NCBI RefSeq assembly: GCF_900100605.1
Contig: NZ_FNCN01000042.1
Location: 1 to 48,317, forward strand
Direction: 5' to 3'
Length of the DNA: 48,317 nucleotides
From: Sinosporangium album
GTDB taxonomy: Bacteria > Actinomycetota > Actinomycetes > Streptosporangiales > Streptosporangiaceae
Part shown: piece after piece, positions 12,291 to 18,149 of the stretch
How the letters are laid out: each line of letters opens with the position of its first letter
How positions within the stretch are numbered: the first letter of the stretch is position 1
The notes under the pieces: generated by a model
What the model saw: the letters and a program-made list of their open reading frames with translations, nothing else
Told to the model about the DNA's origin: nothing
Databases searched by the model: none
Made by a program: the position numbers and the translations under genes

Positions 12291-12310
12291 GCGGCCAGGA
12301 GGTGGTCTCG

Positions 12311-12976
12311 GTGACTATGCCGAAAGAGGACACGGACATGATGCGGGCTCTCCAAGGGATGGAGGGCAACTCATCGGTACGGCTGCAGGCGGTGCTGGCG
12401 ATCGGCACGACCCCAGATCCGCGGTTCGTCGACAAGCTCATTGAACGAAGCGCGATCGAGCCCGATTTTTACGTGCGGGACATGCTCACGTGGGCACTGA
12501 CCCGCCATCCGGCATCGATTACGGTCCCGAAGCTCATCGATGAACTCCGCTCGGAGCGTGCGCAGGCACGCAGCCAGGCGTTGCACACGCTGTCCAAGAT
12601 CGGGGATCAGCAGGCGTGGCCGGCGATCACACGGGCGCTTCTGACCGACGCCGACGACGAGGTGGCGCGGAGCGCCTGGCGAGCAGCGGTCGTGCTCGTG
12701 CCGGAAGGTGAAGACCCCGAGTTGGCCGAAGTGTTGGCGACACAGCTCGGGCGTGGCGAGCGTGAGACGCAGTTGAGCCTCAGCCGGGCGCTGATCGCGC
12801 TCGGGGAGGCGAGCATGCCGACTCTGCGCGCCGCGATGACGGATCGCGACCCTCGGGTGCGTCAGCACGCGATCGCCACGGAAAGGCTGTTGCGCAATCC
12901 GGACGCCGGGTTCGAGTTTGCGATCGAGGAGGCGAAGCGCATCGTAGTCCTGGGCACGAATAGCCAGGAGGGGTGA
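12311..12976 (+). CDS. HEAT-repeat protein
   Basis: 221 aa from the GTG at 12311, chosen because AGGAGG at 12297-12302 is 8 bases upstream; an ATG at 12317 is the alternative. The protein is made almost wholly of HEAT-like helical pairs, each with a conserved pattern such as SVRLQAVLAIG, DDEVARSAWRAAVVL, DPRVRQHAIA. No signal peptide or enzymatic motif. It is the first gene behind a MerR-type operator, directly followed by a MerR regulator that itself ends in HEAT repeats. It may bind or modulate that regulator, or a shared partner; this is inference. Confidence 0.85.
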   Translation: MTMPKEDTDMMRALQGMEGNSSVRLQAVLAIGTTPDPRFVDKLIERSAIEPDFYVRDMLTWALTRHPASITVPKLIDELRSERAQARSQALHTLSKIGDQQAWPAITRALLTDADDEVARSAWRAAVVLVPEGEDPELAEVLATQLGRGERETQLSLSRALIALGEASMPTLRAAMTDRDPRVRQHAIATERLLRNPDAGFEFAIEEAKRIVVLGTNSQEG

Positions 12977-12982
12977 TGGGCA

Positions 12983-14008
12983 GTGTTGATCGGTGACGTG
13001 GCGCGGCGGTCCGGGGTCAGCGCCCGCATGCTCAGGCATTACGAGTCGCTCGGCCTGGTGCGGCCAACGGGCCGTACCGAGGGCGGCTATCGGGAGTACT
13101 CCAGTGAGGACATCCGGCGGATCTTCCATATCGAGAGCCTGCGTTCATTGGGGCTGTCGCTGCGTGAGGTCGGGCGCGCGCTGGATGATCCCGGCTTCAA
13201 GCCCTCAGAGCTCGTCGACGAGCTCATCCGCCAGACGCGCGAACGCATTGCGTTTCAGACGGAGCTGCTGACGCGGCTCCGTCGGATCGGTGCCGCGGAA
13301 CCCACCGACTGGGCGGACGTTCTCCAGGTCGTCGCGCTTCTCCACGCATTGGGGTCGGAAAGCGCTGGGAAACGCCTGCGCGCGGCCTTGTCCTTGGTGG
13401 AAGAGGTTTCGGTGCCAGTGGAAGCTCTGGTCGAGGCGACGTTGAGTGAGACGGACCTGAACGTCGCCGGAGCCCTTCGGTGGGCTCTGGAGCAATCGGG
13501 CGGTGGCGGATTGGTGCTGCTGGCGGAGGGGCTCGGCTCGCCGGCAGCCGAGGTGCGGAGACGTGCCGCGCGGTCGATCGCCGAGATTCGGAATGATGAG
13601 GCGACCGTACTGCTGCGGAAAGCCCTCACGGACTCCGACATCGTGGTCCGCAGGAATGCGGCTCTGGAACTCGGAGCACGGGGAGTGGCCGATGCGGTCC
13701 CGACGCTCATCGAGATGATCGTCGAGGGAGTGAACGACGTCGCTGCAGCCGATGCGCTGAGCGCGCTGGCGAGTGATCCCGCGTTGGCGGATCAGATCGC
13801 CACTAGGCTCGTCGACCGCCTCGCCCGCGGTGCAGTCGGCCATGCCCACGATGCTGCTGAATCGTCTGTACGTGGACGGTTGACACAGGCGCTCGCGGAG
13901 ATCCCGGGGGACACGGTGTCACGTGCTCTCGAAGATCTGTCACATGACGAGGACCGTGTCGTTGCGCTTACCGCGACAGCCATTCTCAAGGTACGCAACA
14001 CGCGATAG
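12983..14008 (+). CDS. MerR-family regulator with HEAT-repeat sensor half
   Basis: 341 aa, GTG start at 12983, AGGAGGGG overlapping the previous stop gives a good ribosome site. Residues 1-70 are a MerR winged helix (MLIGDVARRSGVSARMLRHYESLGLV, then GYREYSSEDIRRI), followed by the dimerisation helix (LIRQTRERIAFQTELLTRL). The usual ligand pocket is replaced by about 220 residues of HEAT-like repeats (AGALRWALEQSG, AAEVRRRAARSIAEI, DIVVRRNAALELG). MerR proteins twist overlong-spacer promoters, and just such a promoter lies at 12260. Autoregulation of this unit is therefore very likely. The HEAT half suggests protein sensing rather than a small ligand. Confidence 0.9.
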   Translation: MLIGDVARRSGVSARMLRHYESLGLVRPTGRTEGGYREYSSEDIRRIFHIESLRSLGLSLREVGRALDDPGFKPSELVDELIRQTRERIAFQTELLTRLRRIGAAEPTDWADVLQVVALLHALGSESAGKRLRAALSLVEEVSVPVEALVEATLSETDLNVAGALRWALEQSGGGGLVLLAEGLGSPAAEVRRRAARSIAEIRNDEATVLLRKALTDSDIVVRRNAALELGARGVADAVPTLIEMIVEGVNDVAAADALSALASDPALADQIATRLVDRLARGAVGHAHDAAESSVRGRLTQALAEIPGDTVSRALEDLSHDEDRVVALTATAILKVRNTR

Positions 14009-14190
14009 CGGTGCACGGTAACGGTGCACGATAACGGTCCTCCCCGGGGTGCTGTGTGTGTGGGAGCGGGCACCACCATGAAATCCGGCATTTCATGTGA
14101 TAGCGGTTTTCGTGCGGGCGGATATATGCTGATCAAGATGAATACCTACTTCAGCAGATTGGGGGCCCCGTTCGAGCAAGGTGAGTGCTG

Positions 14191-15576
14191 ATGCGCTCCT
14201 GGACTGCGAACGAGGACTCCCGTCTTTCCTTCTGGCTGCACGTGCGCAAGTTCGCCGTACCGCCATCCATGATCGAGTCTGCGACTGCCCGCCGTACCGC
14301 CGGGGACTGGGCAGGAGCATGTGCCGCGGCACGCGTCGACGTTGATCTGAATCTGCGCTCCGCGGCTCAAGCCCACGGCCAGGAGTTCGCGGCCCTCCTC
14401 CGGGCCGACCTCCGCCATCTGGCTCCCGACCTGCTGCGCTGGCATATGCCGAGGATCGCCCCTGACGGCCTGCTGCGCCCCGGCCTGACCGTCTCTCTGG
14501 CCCGATACCATCCAGCGTCGCATGGCGGCAGCCGTACGGTGCACCTCGCGGCCCGGACTCCGCCGGCTTGGGCGGATGCCGGTCAGCGGATGAGCCTGGC
14601 TCTGTGGGACGGGCCCCGGTCGGGGATCGGTCCGCATCCGCATCCTCGTCCTCACCGCCGCTTCCGCCTTGACCTGCACCGCCACCTGTGGGACGCCCGC
14701 AGGCTCGGTGAGCTACGGGTCCGTTCCGGGGCGGACCGGCCGCCCGCCGATGGCCATCCCGCTTGGAACCTGGATGTGCCGCTGGAGCGCGGCTGGGCCG
14801 TGGACCGGTGGGCGGCCGAGGCGTGGATGCTGCTCCGCGAGGAAGGGCGTGCCGGTGGTGCGGTCGCCGTACGACTCGGGGGGCGGCGTCAGCTGGTGCT
14901 GGAGCCCGCAGTGGACAGGGCAGCCTCCGGGCTGCCGACGCTGCGGATTTCGGCGGCCCCTGCGAGGGGCGGCGGGTCGGCGCTGCCGGTGCTGCCCGAC
15001 GCGGCGACGTGGGTGCTGCCCGACCTGGCGTTGCTTCGCGCCGGGCTGATCGAGGCCGACCGGCTGCACCCGCTTGTCGCGTCCGCGCTTGTGCCGGGCC
15101 ATCCCCCGGACAGCGCTGCACGGATCCCGTACGGCGCAGCCCAGCGACGCGTGGTCGAGTGCCGTGGTGCCCAGCACCGGATCGCTCTCGTCGACGGTGT
15201 GCTCGTCCCGCTGGACCACGATCCGGCGGAGATCCGCCGCGAGAAGTTGCTGGCCGCGCTGACCGGCACCCCGCTGCCCTGCCTGCAGGTGATCGACGAG
15301 GCACACCGTGACCCGGAGTGTCTCAGCGACGTCCGCGCATGCCTGGACCACGGCGACACCACGGGTGCTCTGGCCGTCGTTGAAGATCTTCTCGGACCCG
15401 GTGCAGCGTTGCCCAGGGGCGCCCTACAGGACGAGTTGGAGACGGCGGCACTGCGGCGAATCGCTCATGGGCTGTTCCGGGCCGGGCTGACCGGGTTCGG
15501 ACAGGGCCCGGCTACCCGGCCTGACCGCCGTACCGGCGGCCACCGCGCACGTCCGCGCCACGCGATGCCCCGCTGA
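14191..15576 (+). CDS. Uncharacterised protein of the MoxR-VWA gene row
   Basis: 461 aa from the ATG at 14191, with AAGGTG 7 bases upstream; GTG at 14185 is the alternative. No known domain is recognised. Early residues include a helical block (ARRTAGDWAGACAAARVDVDLNL), then a His/Pro-rich patch around residue 152-165 (PHPHPRPHRRF). A beta-rich middle follows and the C-terminus is basic and disordered. No signal peptide or membrane helix. It is the first gene of a same-strand row with a MoxR ATPase and a metallopeptidase-VWA protein, so it is probably their target or adaptor. That is inference from position. Confidence 0.8.
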   Translation: MRSWTANEDSRLSFWLHVRKFAVPPSMIESATARRTAGDWAGACAAARVDVDLNLRSAAQAHGQEFAALLRADLRHLAPDLLRWHMPRIAPDGLLRPGLTVSLARYHPASHGGSRTVHLAARTPPAWADAGQRMSLALWDGPRSGIGPHPHPRPHRRFRLDLHRHLWDARRLGELRVRSGADRPPADGHPAWNLDVPLERGWAVDRWAAEAWMLLREEGRAGGAVAVRLGGRRQLVLEPAVDRAASGLPTLRISAAPARGGGSALPVLPDAATWVLPDLALLRAGLIEADRLHPLVASALVPGHPPDSAARIPYGAAQRRVVECRGAQHRIALVDGVLVPLDHDPAEIRREKLLAALTGTPLPCLQVIDEAHRDPECLSDVRACLDHGDTTGALAVVEDLLGPGAALPRGALQDELETAALRRIAHGLFRAGLTGFGQGPATRPDRRTGGHRARPRHAMPR

Positions 15577-15660
15577 TTCGCGGCCTCCCCCTCCTCGCAC
15601 TGTCTCACCGCGTTCCTGTCCCGCCTCCATTCGGCTCGACCAGACCTCAAAGGTGATCTC

Positions 15661-16911
15661 ATGCCCGCATCCGTCCTGCCCGCATCTCCGTCCACTGCCA
15701 CCGCGTCCAGGCTGGACGTCGCCGCCGATCTACTCGACCTGCTCCACGACACGGCCACAGAACTGCGCGTCGATACGCAGTTGGAGGCCCTGACCCTTGC
15801 CGTGGCAGCCGACCTGCCGGTGCTGCTGTGGGGAGAGCCGGGGATCGGCAAGACCGCGGCTCTGGAGCAGCTCGCCGTAGCCCTTGACCTACCGCTGACC
15901 ACGGTGATCGCCAGTGTGCACGAACCATCTGACTTCTCCGGCCTGCCCGTGGTGGGTGACGACCCCGCGGTCCAGGGCATCCCGATGGCCCCGCCGGACT
16001 GGGCCGTACGGCTGGCGCGGACGGGCCGAGGGCTGCTCTTCCTGGACGAACTGTCCACGGCGCCGCCGGCCGTACAGGCCGCTTTGCTCCGCCTCGTGCT
16101 GGAGCGGCGGGTCGGCGCCTTGCGGCTGCCCCCCGGAGTCCGGATCGTGGCAGCCGCCAATCCGAGGTCCTCCGCGGCCGACGGCTGGGAGCTGAGCGCA
16201 CCCCTGGCCAACCGGTTCGTTCATCTGCAGTGGGCTCATGACCACGAGGTCGTGGTACGTGGCCTTGGCGGGACCTGGCCGCGGGCGTCGCTGCCACGGC
16301 TCGACCCGGATCGGTTGTCAGAGGCGGTTACGTTCGCCCGACGTGCGGTATGCGGGCTCCTCGCCGCCCGTCCCGCACTCGTGCACCGGTTGCCGAGCAA
16401 CGAAACCCGCAGGGGCGGTCCATGGCCCTCACCCCGCAGTTGGGAGATGGCACTGCGTTTGATCGCCTTCGCCACCGCGGCGAACACATCCCGGGATGTG
16501 CTGTCCATGCTGGTCCGGGGCACGGTAGGGGACGGTCCCGGACTGGAACTGCTGGCCGGTATGGACCGGATGGACCTGCCCGACCCTGAGACGCTGCTGG
16601 CCGACCCGGCGGCGGCCGACCTGCCGGAGCGGGGCGACCTGCGCCAAGCCGTACTCGACGGCGTGGTGGAGGCCGTCCGGAAGCGGCCGGAGAAGTCCCG
16701 CTGGGACGCAGCGTGGGCACTGCTGGTCCGAGCGTTGGAGACCGGAGCCCCGGACCTGGTGGTCGTACCGGCGAGCACGCTCGCCGCGCTGCGTCGCGCG
16801 GATTGGGATGTCCCGGCGTCGATTGAGAAGCTCGCCGGGGTGGTGTCCTTGAGCAGGCAGGCGGACAAGGCCGCGGTTCGGACCGCAGCCGCCATGGGGC
16901 CGAACCGATGA
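15661..16911 (+). CDS. MoxR-type AAA+ ATPase
   Basis: 416 aa. Walker A GEPGIGKT at residues 58-65, Walker B GLLFLDE at 124-130, sensor-1 asparagine in AAANP at about 167, and an insert between them typical of the MoxR/AAA_5 clade (HEPSDFSGLPVVG). MoxR ATPases act as chaperones that load or remodel partners, usually encoded next to von Willebrand A proteins, as here. The C-terminal third is specific to this gene type. The stop overlaps the start of the downstream VWA gene (ATGA). Confidence 0.92.
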   Translation: MPASVLPASPSTATASRLDVAADLLDLLHDTATELRVDTQLEALTLAVAADLPVLLWGEPGIGKTAALEQLAVALDLPLTTVIASVHEPSDFSGLPVVGDDPAVQGIPMAPPDWAVRLARTGRGLLFLDELSTAPPAVQAALLRLVLERRVGALRLPPGVRIVAAANPRSSAADGWELSAPLANRFVHLQWAHDHEVVVRGLGGTWPRASLPRLDPDRLSEAVTFARRAVCGLLAARPALVHRLPSNETRRGGPWPSPRSWEMALRLIAFATAANTSRDVLSMLVRGTVGDGPGLELLAGMDRMDLPDPETLLADPAAADLPERGDLRQAVLDGVVEAVRKRPEKSRWDAAWALLVRALETGAPDLVVVPASTLAALRRADWDVPASIEKLAGVVSLSRQADKAAVRTAAAMGPNR

Positions 16912-18149
16912 CGCCCGGCGTGGCGGAGACCCTGGACCGCGAGAAGCTCTTCGCCGCACGGCTTCTCGCCGCCCGGGCTCGGCCCTATCTGGCGACGGCG
17001 CTGTTCGCGCTGCACACGGTGGAGTCACGACGTGTGCCGACGATGGCCGTGGACCGCGACTGGCGCTGCTACGTCTCGCCGGCGTTCGTTGATCGGACGC
17101 CCGTGGAAGAACTGGCAGGGGTGTGGGTGCACGAGGTCTCCCACCTGCTGCGCGACCATCACGGGCGTAGCGACCGGGTCGCCTTGGAACGAGGATTGAC
17201 CGGACCGGGGGACCGGCTGCGGATGAACATCGCCGCCGACTTCGAGATCAACGACGACGTGTTCGGGGACGGGTTGGCCCGGCCCGAGGGCGCCGTCGAA
17301 CCGGGGCTTCTCGGGTTGACCGAGGGGGAGCTCATGGAGGACTATCTGCGCCAGTTCCGGCTCGGGCCGTACACACAAGATCTGGTCTGGCTGGACTGCG
17401 GCAGCGGCGCCGACGGGCTGGAACGGGAGTGGGACCTCGGACCGGACGGTGCGAACAGGCTCAGCCCACAGGAACGAGACGCGGTTCGGTTCCGGGTAGC
17501 GGAAGGCATCACCGCCCGCCCCGGAAACGTCCCGAAAGGGTGGCAGCGGTGGGCGGAGGAGGCGTTTCACCCGCCACAGCCGTGGCGGGAACTGCTCGGC
17601 GCGGCGGTTCGCTCGGCGGCCTCCGGCGCGGGCGGGGGTGAGGACTACACGTACGGCCGGCCGTCGCGGCGGTCGGCCGGCCTGCCCGGCGTTGTCCTGC
17701 CGAGCCTGCGGCGCAGGCCGCCGCGGGTCTCCGTGGTCATCGACACATCCGGGTCGGTCAGCGACGCCGAACTGGGCAGCGCACTTCTCGAGGTCGCCGC
17801 GATCGTCCGCGTCGTGGGCGGTCGGCGCGACCTGGTCAGCGTACTGTCGTGTGACGCGGCGGCCCAGGTTGTGCACTCGATGTGCCGTGCCGAGGGAATA
17901 CCGCTGGTGGGCGGTGGCGGGACGGATCTGCGTGCGGGCTTCGCCACGGCGCTGCGAGCAAGGCCGCGGCCAGACGTCGTCGTGATTCTGACCGACGGTC
18001 AAACCCGCTGGCCGGATGCGCGGCCACCGTGCCGGACGGTGGTGGGACTGTTCCCTCGGGCAAGGCGGCAGTCCTCGTGGGACGAGGACGATCCCGATTA
18101 CATGCCGGACACACCGCCCGAATGGGCACGGGTGGTCGTCATCGGATAG
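16908..18149 (+). CDS. DUF2201-type protein: metallopeptidase-like domain plus VWA domain
   Basis: 413 aa, starting within the stop of the ATPase gene. The N-terminal half has a zincin-like HEVSH at residues 75-79 and a downstream acidic motif DFEINDD (111-117), as in the putative metallopeptidase domain of DUF2201 proteins. The C-terminal half is a VWA-like domain with MIDAS residues D279-T280-S281-G282-S283, T339 (GGGGTD) and D363 (LTDGQT). This is the standard partner of MoxR ATPases. Whether it is an active protease is unknown, but both the HExxH and the MIDAS residues are intact. Confidence 0.92.
   Translation: MTPGVAETLDREKLFAARLLAARARPYLATALFALHTVESRRVPTMAVDRDWRCYVSPAFVDRTPVEELAGVWVHEVSHLLRDHHGRSDRVALERGLTGPGDRLRMNIAADFEINDDVFGDGLARPEGAVEPGLLGLTEGELMEDYLRQFRLGPYTQDLVWLDCGSGADGLEREWDLGPDGANRLSPQERDAVRFRVAEGITARPGNVPKGWQRWAEEAFHPPQPWRELLGAAVRSAASGAGGGEDYTYGRPSRRSAGLPGVVLPSLRRRPPRVSVVIDTSGSVSDAELGSALLEVAAIVRVVGGRRDLVSVLSCDAAAQVVHSMCRAEGIPLVGGGGTDLRAGFATALRARPRPDVVVILTDGQTRWPDARPPCRTVVGLFPRARRQSSWDEDDPDYMPDTPPEWARVVVIG

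Follow-up and report, generated by a model that had tools for sequence, protein, structure and literature searches.

A three-gene cassette of Sinosporangium album, located within a stretch of 48,317 nucleotides (contig NZ_FNCN01000042.1, here referred to as the window), is best explained as a self-contained machine encoded together with its dedicated partner, a reading to which we assign a probability of about 0.5. The machine would be formed by P2, a MoxR-type AAA+ ATPase, and P3, a DUF2201 protein in which a zincin-like and a VWA domain are joined, whereby P1, a 461-amino-acid (aa) protein of a new family, is probably their physical partner. P1 contains a domain of about 60 aa with the pattern C-x4-H ... 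H ... C, termed CHHC, for which we lean towards a function as docking element. The reading is carried by the order of the three genes, the co-occurrence of P1 with P3, the CHHC domain as a feature common to the partners and the intact motifs of P2 and P3. The features of the cassette are the following:

14191–15576, + strand: P1, 461-aa partner protein of a new family (open reading frame 14185–15576, ATG at 14191)
14178–14185, + strand: AAGGTGAG, upstream of the P1 ATG
14191–14880, + strand: N-terminal region of P1 (about residues 1–230) with the motif AVPxxMIExATxRRxAGDWxGAC, common to short and long P1 in the alignment
15136–15315, + strand: CHHC domain of P1 (residues 316–375; C324, H329, H343, C364), predicted to bind metal and proposed as docking or tag domain
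15661–16911, + strand: P2, 416 aa, MoxR-type AAA+ ATPase with Walker A GEPGIGKT near 15832 and Walker B LLFLDEL near 16033
16908–18149, + strand: P3, 413 aa, DUF2201 protein (zincin-like and VWA domains), overlapping P2 by 4 bases
16944–17711, + strand: zincin-like domain of P3, HEVSH at 17130–17144 (residues 75–79)
17727–18065, + strand: VWA domain of P3, metal-ion-dependent adhesion site (MIDAS) motif DTSGS at 17742–17756 (residues 279–283), followed by GGGGTD and LTDG

Gene order and co-occurrence

All three genes were called by a simple codon-position gene caller, and their coordinates agree with an earlier note, made from the sequence alone, which had described them as one row with the last two genes overlapping by four bases. 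In the host genome (7.06 Mb), P3 is present as a single copy (E ≤ 0.01). A scan of named genomes yielded at least 523 relatives, and among the best 80 loci, which were analysed, 78 were found to be colinear in the order P1-P2-P3, the other two (L062 and L073) ending with their contig. As a consequence, the row of genes is not a matter of chance, and the three-gene system proposed earlier is a real one. The genera represented among the best 80 loci include Streptomyces, Kitasatospora, Nonomuraea, Micromonospora, Salinispora, Nocardia, Amycolatopsis and Saccharothrix. P1 was also found on nine plasmid records, of which the two inspected carry P1, P2 and P3 annotated as hypothetical protein, MoxR family ATPase and VWA-like domain-containing protein, respectively.

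Co-occurrence was determined in a sample of 150 genomes of the order, P3 being counted as cassette-type up to an E-value of about 1e-120. P1 was identified in 37 genomes and cassette-type P3 in exactly the same 37, one of them (G063) by a P1 remnant. Each of the 38 cassette-type P3 genes (counting this remnant) possesses a P1 upstream, on the same strand and within 9 kb; in the other direction, 44 of the 50 P1 places (a gene matched in two pieces being counted once) lie upstream of P3 under the same limits, and the six solo copies are spread over five genomes, each of which also has a cassette elsewhere. The neighbourhood test asked for in the earlier note hence shows that P1 goes with this ATPase-VWA pair, no P1 having been found in a cassette-free genome of this sample. 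P3 matches of any kind occur in 59 of the 150 genomes, whereby the more distant DUF2201 genes come without P1. In 4 of the 38 cassettes P1 is present in tandem, with two to three copies. Twenty regions were fetched, 18 of which contain P1, P2 and P3; of the other two, L048 holds a P1 on its own, and L050, which derives from G063, is decayed: P3 is intact there, P2 is broken, and of P1 a C-terminal remnant is left. A stop within the P1 match was observed in G310, G342, G553, G667 and G731.

P1, a new family with two forms

The assignment of P1 to no known family stood, as neither Pfam, NCBIfam and PADLOC (E ≤ 1) nor PHROGs (E ≤ 0.01) gave a family match and the PDB gave no sequence match (E ≤ 1). 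Its AlphaFold2 model reached a predicted local distance difference test score (pLDDT) of 70.6 and a predicted template modelling score (pTM) of 0.72, whereby pLDDT values of 69–94 were obtained in blocks within residues 11–140 and lower, uneven values beyond. The N-terminal motifs AVPxxMI and GDWxxAC are kept in 77 and 79 of the 80 loci, respectively. Two forms of P1 can be distinguished, namely a short form, to which the P1 of the window belongs (403–543 aa in the 80 loci), and a long form of 540–593 aa, which is 33–40% identical to the P1 of the window and ends with ankyrin repeats in all four cases scanned. Next to the long form, a gene for a leucine-rich repeat (LRR) protein was observed that overlaps P1 by 4 bases, both in a cassette (L042:9173-12051) and at a solo P1 (L297:3677-6552). 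Among the 78 complete cassettes, mean identity is lowest for P1 (0.685), as compared to P2 (0.842) and P3 (0.806). A search with the P1 profile matched 29 genomes, 15 of which matched by the ankyrin part alone (from model position 411 onwards) and were excluded from the P1 counts; the remainder consists of 11 genomes with P1 and three with CHHC only.

The CHHC domain

C324, H329, H343 and C364 are invariant in the 21 aligned P1 sequences and, by pattern, in P1 of all 80 loci. The CHHC profile further matches proteins otherwise unlike P1, which are encoded beside MoxR-DUF2201 pairs in three bacterial genomes (G155, G170 and G295) and on viral contigs. In a sample of one phylum, comprising 396 genomes and searched with alignment A4, CHHC was found in 14 genomes, all of which are among the 21 with P3 matches, and, among the candidates scored, in none of the remaining 375, which gave no P3 match; at genus level, CHHC occurs in 6 and P3 in 11 of 237. 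The four residues are kept in all rows of A4, but 25 of its 27 rows were excised by a pattern demanding them, so that this invariance partly follows from the way A4 was made; the P1 sequences were collected in a different manner.

The number of CHHC proteins per genome differs considerably: seven were found in G155, ten in G170 (11 when all candidates were scored) and two in G295, and the genome of S. album holds no second convincing one, a single partial match having an E-value of 0.002. A CHHC gene lies directly 3' of P3 in G155, G170 and G295, with more on other contigs, and in G155 three of them follow P3 in a row with small overlaps. G185, the third genome of the order to which G170 belongs, has neither P3 nor CHHC. 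In the same three genomes, solitary CHHC genes (about 250–310 aa; L276–L283 and L195–L198) were observed away from the pair, amid genes of housekeeping type, the neighbours being identified by reading their sequences. A profile built without viral rows detected CHHC in the vicinity of P3-like genes at eight of the 33 viral loci, two of which (L210 and L211) have identical P3, and at none of the six plasmid or phage loci L238–L243.

Ten CHHC proteins gave no convincing Pfam match. The AlphaFold2 model of a CHHC protein from G170 (pLDDT 88.9, pTM 0.83) has three strands and a helix at residues 10–16, 19–26, 29–32 and 37–45, and the same succession is predicted for the CHHC domain of P1 at residues 320–324, 327–334, 337–340 and 345–358. 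In the predicted layout, the first cysteine and the first histidine flank the first turn, the second histidine precedes the helix and the last cysteine starts the next helix, an arrangement which probably suits a metal site. No PDB fold matched the G170 model (E ≤ 0.001); a likeness to a SEC-C protein (47-column overlap, E 0.096, probability 0.96) was not used.

Domain assignments of P2 and P3

P2 matches Pfam AAA_5 with 38.1 bits (cut-off 22), and with 26.1 bits it stays just under the cut-off of 27 for AAA_3, which we take to be the MoxR-type model. Its Walker B motif is present in 79 of 79 loci and the strict Walker A pattern in 76 of 79, and relatives of P2 are labelled MoxR family ATPase in two plasmid records. 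The VWA gene adjoins, and the identification of P2 as a MoxR AAA+ ATPase is retained. P3 exceeds the Pfam cut-offs for both DUF2201_N (PF13203; 90.5 bits as compared to 23.2) and DUF2201 (PF09967; 59.4 bits as compared to 26.4), which confirms the earlier description of a DUF2201 protein with intact HEVSH and MIDAS motifs. Of the VWA motifs, DxSxS and LTDG are kept in 78 of 78 loci and GGGGTD in 76 of 78. HExxH is likewise intact in all 78 cassette P3 sequences and in the 20 P3 sequences of alignment A2, whereby at least two genomes are part of both sets.

Weighing the reading

A number of observations weigh against a self-contained machine with a CHHC-borne partner. Seven of the 21 genomes of the phylum sample with P3 lack CHHC (G257, G343, G402, G471, G475, G493 and G519), as do 25 of the 33 viral P3 loci, which means that either the pair also works without CHHC or the domain was missed or lies outside the fetched stretch. 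Per genome, three candidates were scored for the P1 profile, four for P3 and 15 for CHHC; since the scoring was limited to these, a missing match is less certain than a detected one. In one solo P1 (L296), the N-terminal region is present but the CHHC domain is not. The pairwise distances of P1, P2 and P3 are only moderately correlated (r 0.64–0.73 among the 78 cassettes), and the nearest relative agrees between two components in just 38–46% of these cassettes; judged from these sequence comparisons, co-inheritance of the three proteins would fit only loosely. The P1 model matched no PDB fold (E ≤ 0.001). Finally, the glutamate of HExxH is replaced in several P3 relatives: G155, G170 and G295, the three bacterial genomes of the sample with CHHC partners other than P1, have HHVGH, HHVGH and HHTGH, respectively (glutamate to histidine), and L242, a plasmid or phage locus without CHHC, has HQVTH (glutamate to glutamine).

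As P1 has neither a fold nor a family match, an enzymatic role is possible for it, and P1 could merely be co-transcribed with P2 and P3 while having an unrelated activity of its own, the association being one of gene order alone. This is very improbable, since the association holds across the two P1 subfamilies and on both plasmids and chromosomes, and that of CHHC survives changes in gene order and architecture and reaches viral contigs.

The exchanged glutamate bears on the question of whether P3 is a peptidase. The earlier note had deduced a proteolytic output from the intact HExxH motif, and this output is not assured: the motif is found in 78 of 78 cassettes, yet the glutamate is a histidine in the three bacterial genomes. 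These HHxGH variants retain the flanking sequences LLRDH and AADAE[IL]NDD. Among the viral P3 loci, HExxH is present in 30 of 33; L210 and L211 have HEVAGH, and L235 has lost the motif. All eight viral loci with CHHC keep the glutamate, six within HExxH and the two identical ones within HEVAGH. Judged from these motifs, the tie between CHHC partner and machine appears not to depend everywhere on a classical, glutamate-dependent peptidase and often to be accompanied by one. The occurrence of HHxGH variants together with CHHC partners thus makes it less compelling to conclude from HExxH that proteolysis is the defining function, and leaves room for the main rival, a metal-loading chaperone. Here, P2 and P3 would load metal into the CHHC site of P1, as NorQD puts iron into nitric oxide reductase, whereby the zincin-like domain would hold or deliver the metal without cutting. 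Such a function would be in line with the four invariant potential metal ligands of P1, with the HHxGH variants, which keep both histidines of the motif as well as AADAE[IL]NDD and of which two are accompanied by 7 and 10–11 CHHC proteins, and with the metal insertion to which MoxR-VWA pairs are linked (PMC13036017). It is nevertheless considered rather unlikely, as the HExxH glutamate is invariant in the clade of the window, the cassette is not repeatedly accompanied by any enzyme of known function, and C/H/H/C may simply be a structural zinc site which loads itself. Furthermore, the eight viral CHHC loci document that loss of the glutamate is no rule of CHHC partnership, for which reason the odds of metal loading were lowered slightly.

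Neighbouring genes and the question of defence

Clustering of 3406 flanking open reading frames revealed no conserved fourth gene, as no family occurs in more than 9 of the 80 loci. Directly upstream of P1 in the window (12302–14008), a HEAT-repeat protein is encoded, and next to it a regulator of MerR type to which HEAT repeats are fused; neither gene was found beside the other cassettes examined. Epoxide-hydrolase-like, HEAT, MerR-HEAT, MFS, TetR and NmrA-like neighbours were rejected as fourth component, none of them recurring beyond weak, generic MFS and TetR matches.

The earlier note had also suggested a conflict system, in which P1 would sense an invader by means of its variable repeats, with P2 and P3 serving as effector. 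Such an anti-phage function would agree with a patchy presence (37 of 150 genomes of the order and 101 of 199 genomes in one genus, that of G277), with scattered positions that lack common neighbours and are sometimes plasmid-borne, and with the ankyrin and LRR repeats, the tandem copies and the fast evolution of P1. In a scan of 101 of the 150 immediate neighbours (L052–L106, minus one long protein), however, no Pfam family was present in more than three and no PADLOC family in more than four: at 1e-10, mad2-like matches were found in four neighbours and the others in one each (among the 25 of 36 families listed), these being raw counts without a background set. P1 and P3 match no PADLOC family (E ≤ 1), and the best match of P2 (1.1e-5) is a weak one to an AAA model. 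The solitary CHHC genes moreover lie amid what appear to be housekeeping genes. With these few and generic matches the suggestion is not supported, in spite of the patchy presence, and the low numbers leave the impression of a cassette without a link to defence; a conflict function is regarded as improbable.

Comparison with known systems

A close counterpart of P2 and P3 has been described in group 2.2 jumbo phages, which encode a MoxR ATPase together with a vWA protein carrying an N-terminal metallopeptidase domain, and for which participation in virion assembly, including the processing of structural proteins, was proposed (PMC7824862). Both pairs thus combine a MoxR AAA+ protein with a VWA domain fused to a metallopeptidase domain, and P2 and P3 match the PHROGs families phrog_1297 and phrog_1314, respectively. 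Unlike the phage pair in that description, the P1-P2-P3 cassette is bacterial and has P1 as third gene, and a role in virion assembly would not explain it. In each of the 62 phage records found, the best-matching place is less than 60% identical to P3 of the window. For P1 in viruses, 131 stretches fit a pattern and none was confirmed by tblastn. Several phage DUF2201-like proteins (H17, H19–H21, H23 and H27–H39; phrog_1314) are labelled HNH or homing endonuclease yet match P3, which is probably a propagated misannotation. In Synechococcus phage MinM2 (L243:644-5101), a DUF3150 protein and several small genes lie between the MoxR and the DUF2201-like genes, i.e., the set of partners is a different one.

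A precedent for the machine reading is NorQ-NorD, in which the VWA partner has an extension that reaches into the pore of MoxR, and systems of this type resemble the cassette in that a MoxR AAA+ protein works with a VWA protein on a third protein presumed to be the target (PMC13036017). The cassette differs by the zincin-like domain of P3 and by P1, which is no known metalloenzyme. A client metalloenzyme of the NorQD type alongside the cassette was looked for among the flanking families of the 80 loci, none of which passes the count given above, and in P1 itself, which is no known enzyme; none was identified. The ternary VMAP/vWA-MoxR conflict systems share with the cassette the combination of MoxR, vWA and a variable third component as well as their occurrence in multicellular actinobacteria (PMC7159879), and the term DUF2201 is absent from the main text of that paper. 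In contrast to these systems, no Pfam family matches P1, and the score of P2 on bpMoxR (17.2 bits) is below the cut-off of 27. No VMAP-type or other described third component was recognized, P1 matching none of the Pfam families (E ≤ 1), among which VMAP models are taken to be represented.

A second DUF2201 system in conserved order was observed on plasmids of Rhodococcus jostii, R. erythropolis, Mycobacterium paragordonae and Xylanimonas (L238–L241). Like the cassette, it has a MoxR-type ATPase followed by a DUF2201 protein, which is 36–41% identical to P3 among the matches listed. Its other genes usually code for a protein of 59–65 aa (unannotated in the Mycobacterium record), a hypothetical protein of 388–412 aa and a second P-loop ATPase; because of these other partner genes, and as no CHHC was found, it was rejected as the same system.

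The ATPase/metallopeptidase-VWA pair is therefore not new, being known from jumbo phages (PMC7824862), and the suggestion of an undescribed system, as made earlier, is supported for the third member. Judged by sequence, P1, the CHHC domain and the tie of CHHC to the pair appear to be new. For these three no description was found in the open-licence literature, and neither was a report on the P1-P2-P3 cassette by title or start of the abstract, both within incomplete listings of that literature.

Proposed mechanism

Based on these data, a model is suggested in which P2, as a MoxR hexamer, and P3, with its VWA and zincin-like domains, would form an ATP-driven remodelling machine. P1 would serve as dedicated partner, which may be held by its small, putatively metal-binding CHHC domain; the client or adaptor role proposed for P1 earlier is reasonable and gains strength from CHHC being common to the partners. 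The rest of P1, i.e., the N-terminal region and, in the long form, the ankyrin repeats, may sense or bind something else. The use of ATP by P2 would act through P3 on the docked P1 and thereby alter its state. As HExxH is invariant in the clade of the window, which can be argued to mean that catalysis matters there, limited cleavage by P3 would be the likeliest output in this clade, an assignment that we make tentatively.

More speculatively, CHHC may be a portable metal-binding tag for the partners of MoxR/DUF2201 machines in actinobacteria and viruses, whereby usually one machine per genome would serve between one and about 11 partners equipped with interchangeable recognition modules (ankyrin repeats, an LRR mate and others). 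Since the catalytic glutamate can be lost without loss of the partners, the relation of tag and machine, and not proteolysis, would then be the conserved core.

Significance

For most MoxR-VWA machines we know of no identified client and of little that indicates which proteins they serve. The CHHC domain was encountered only in genomes or loci that encode one such machine, and in some genomes it is carried by several proteins; it would allow client recognition to be approached by sequence. The HHxGH variants lend themselves as a natural experiment to distinguish cleavage of peptide bonds by the zincin-like domain from the mere holding of a metal, and the cassette, being small and present in many Streptomyces strains, can be deleted and expressed directly.

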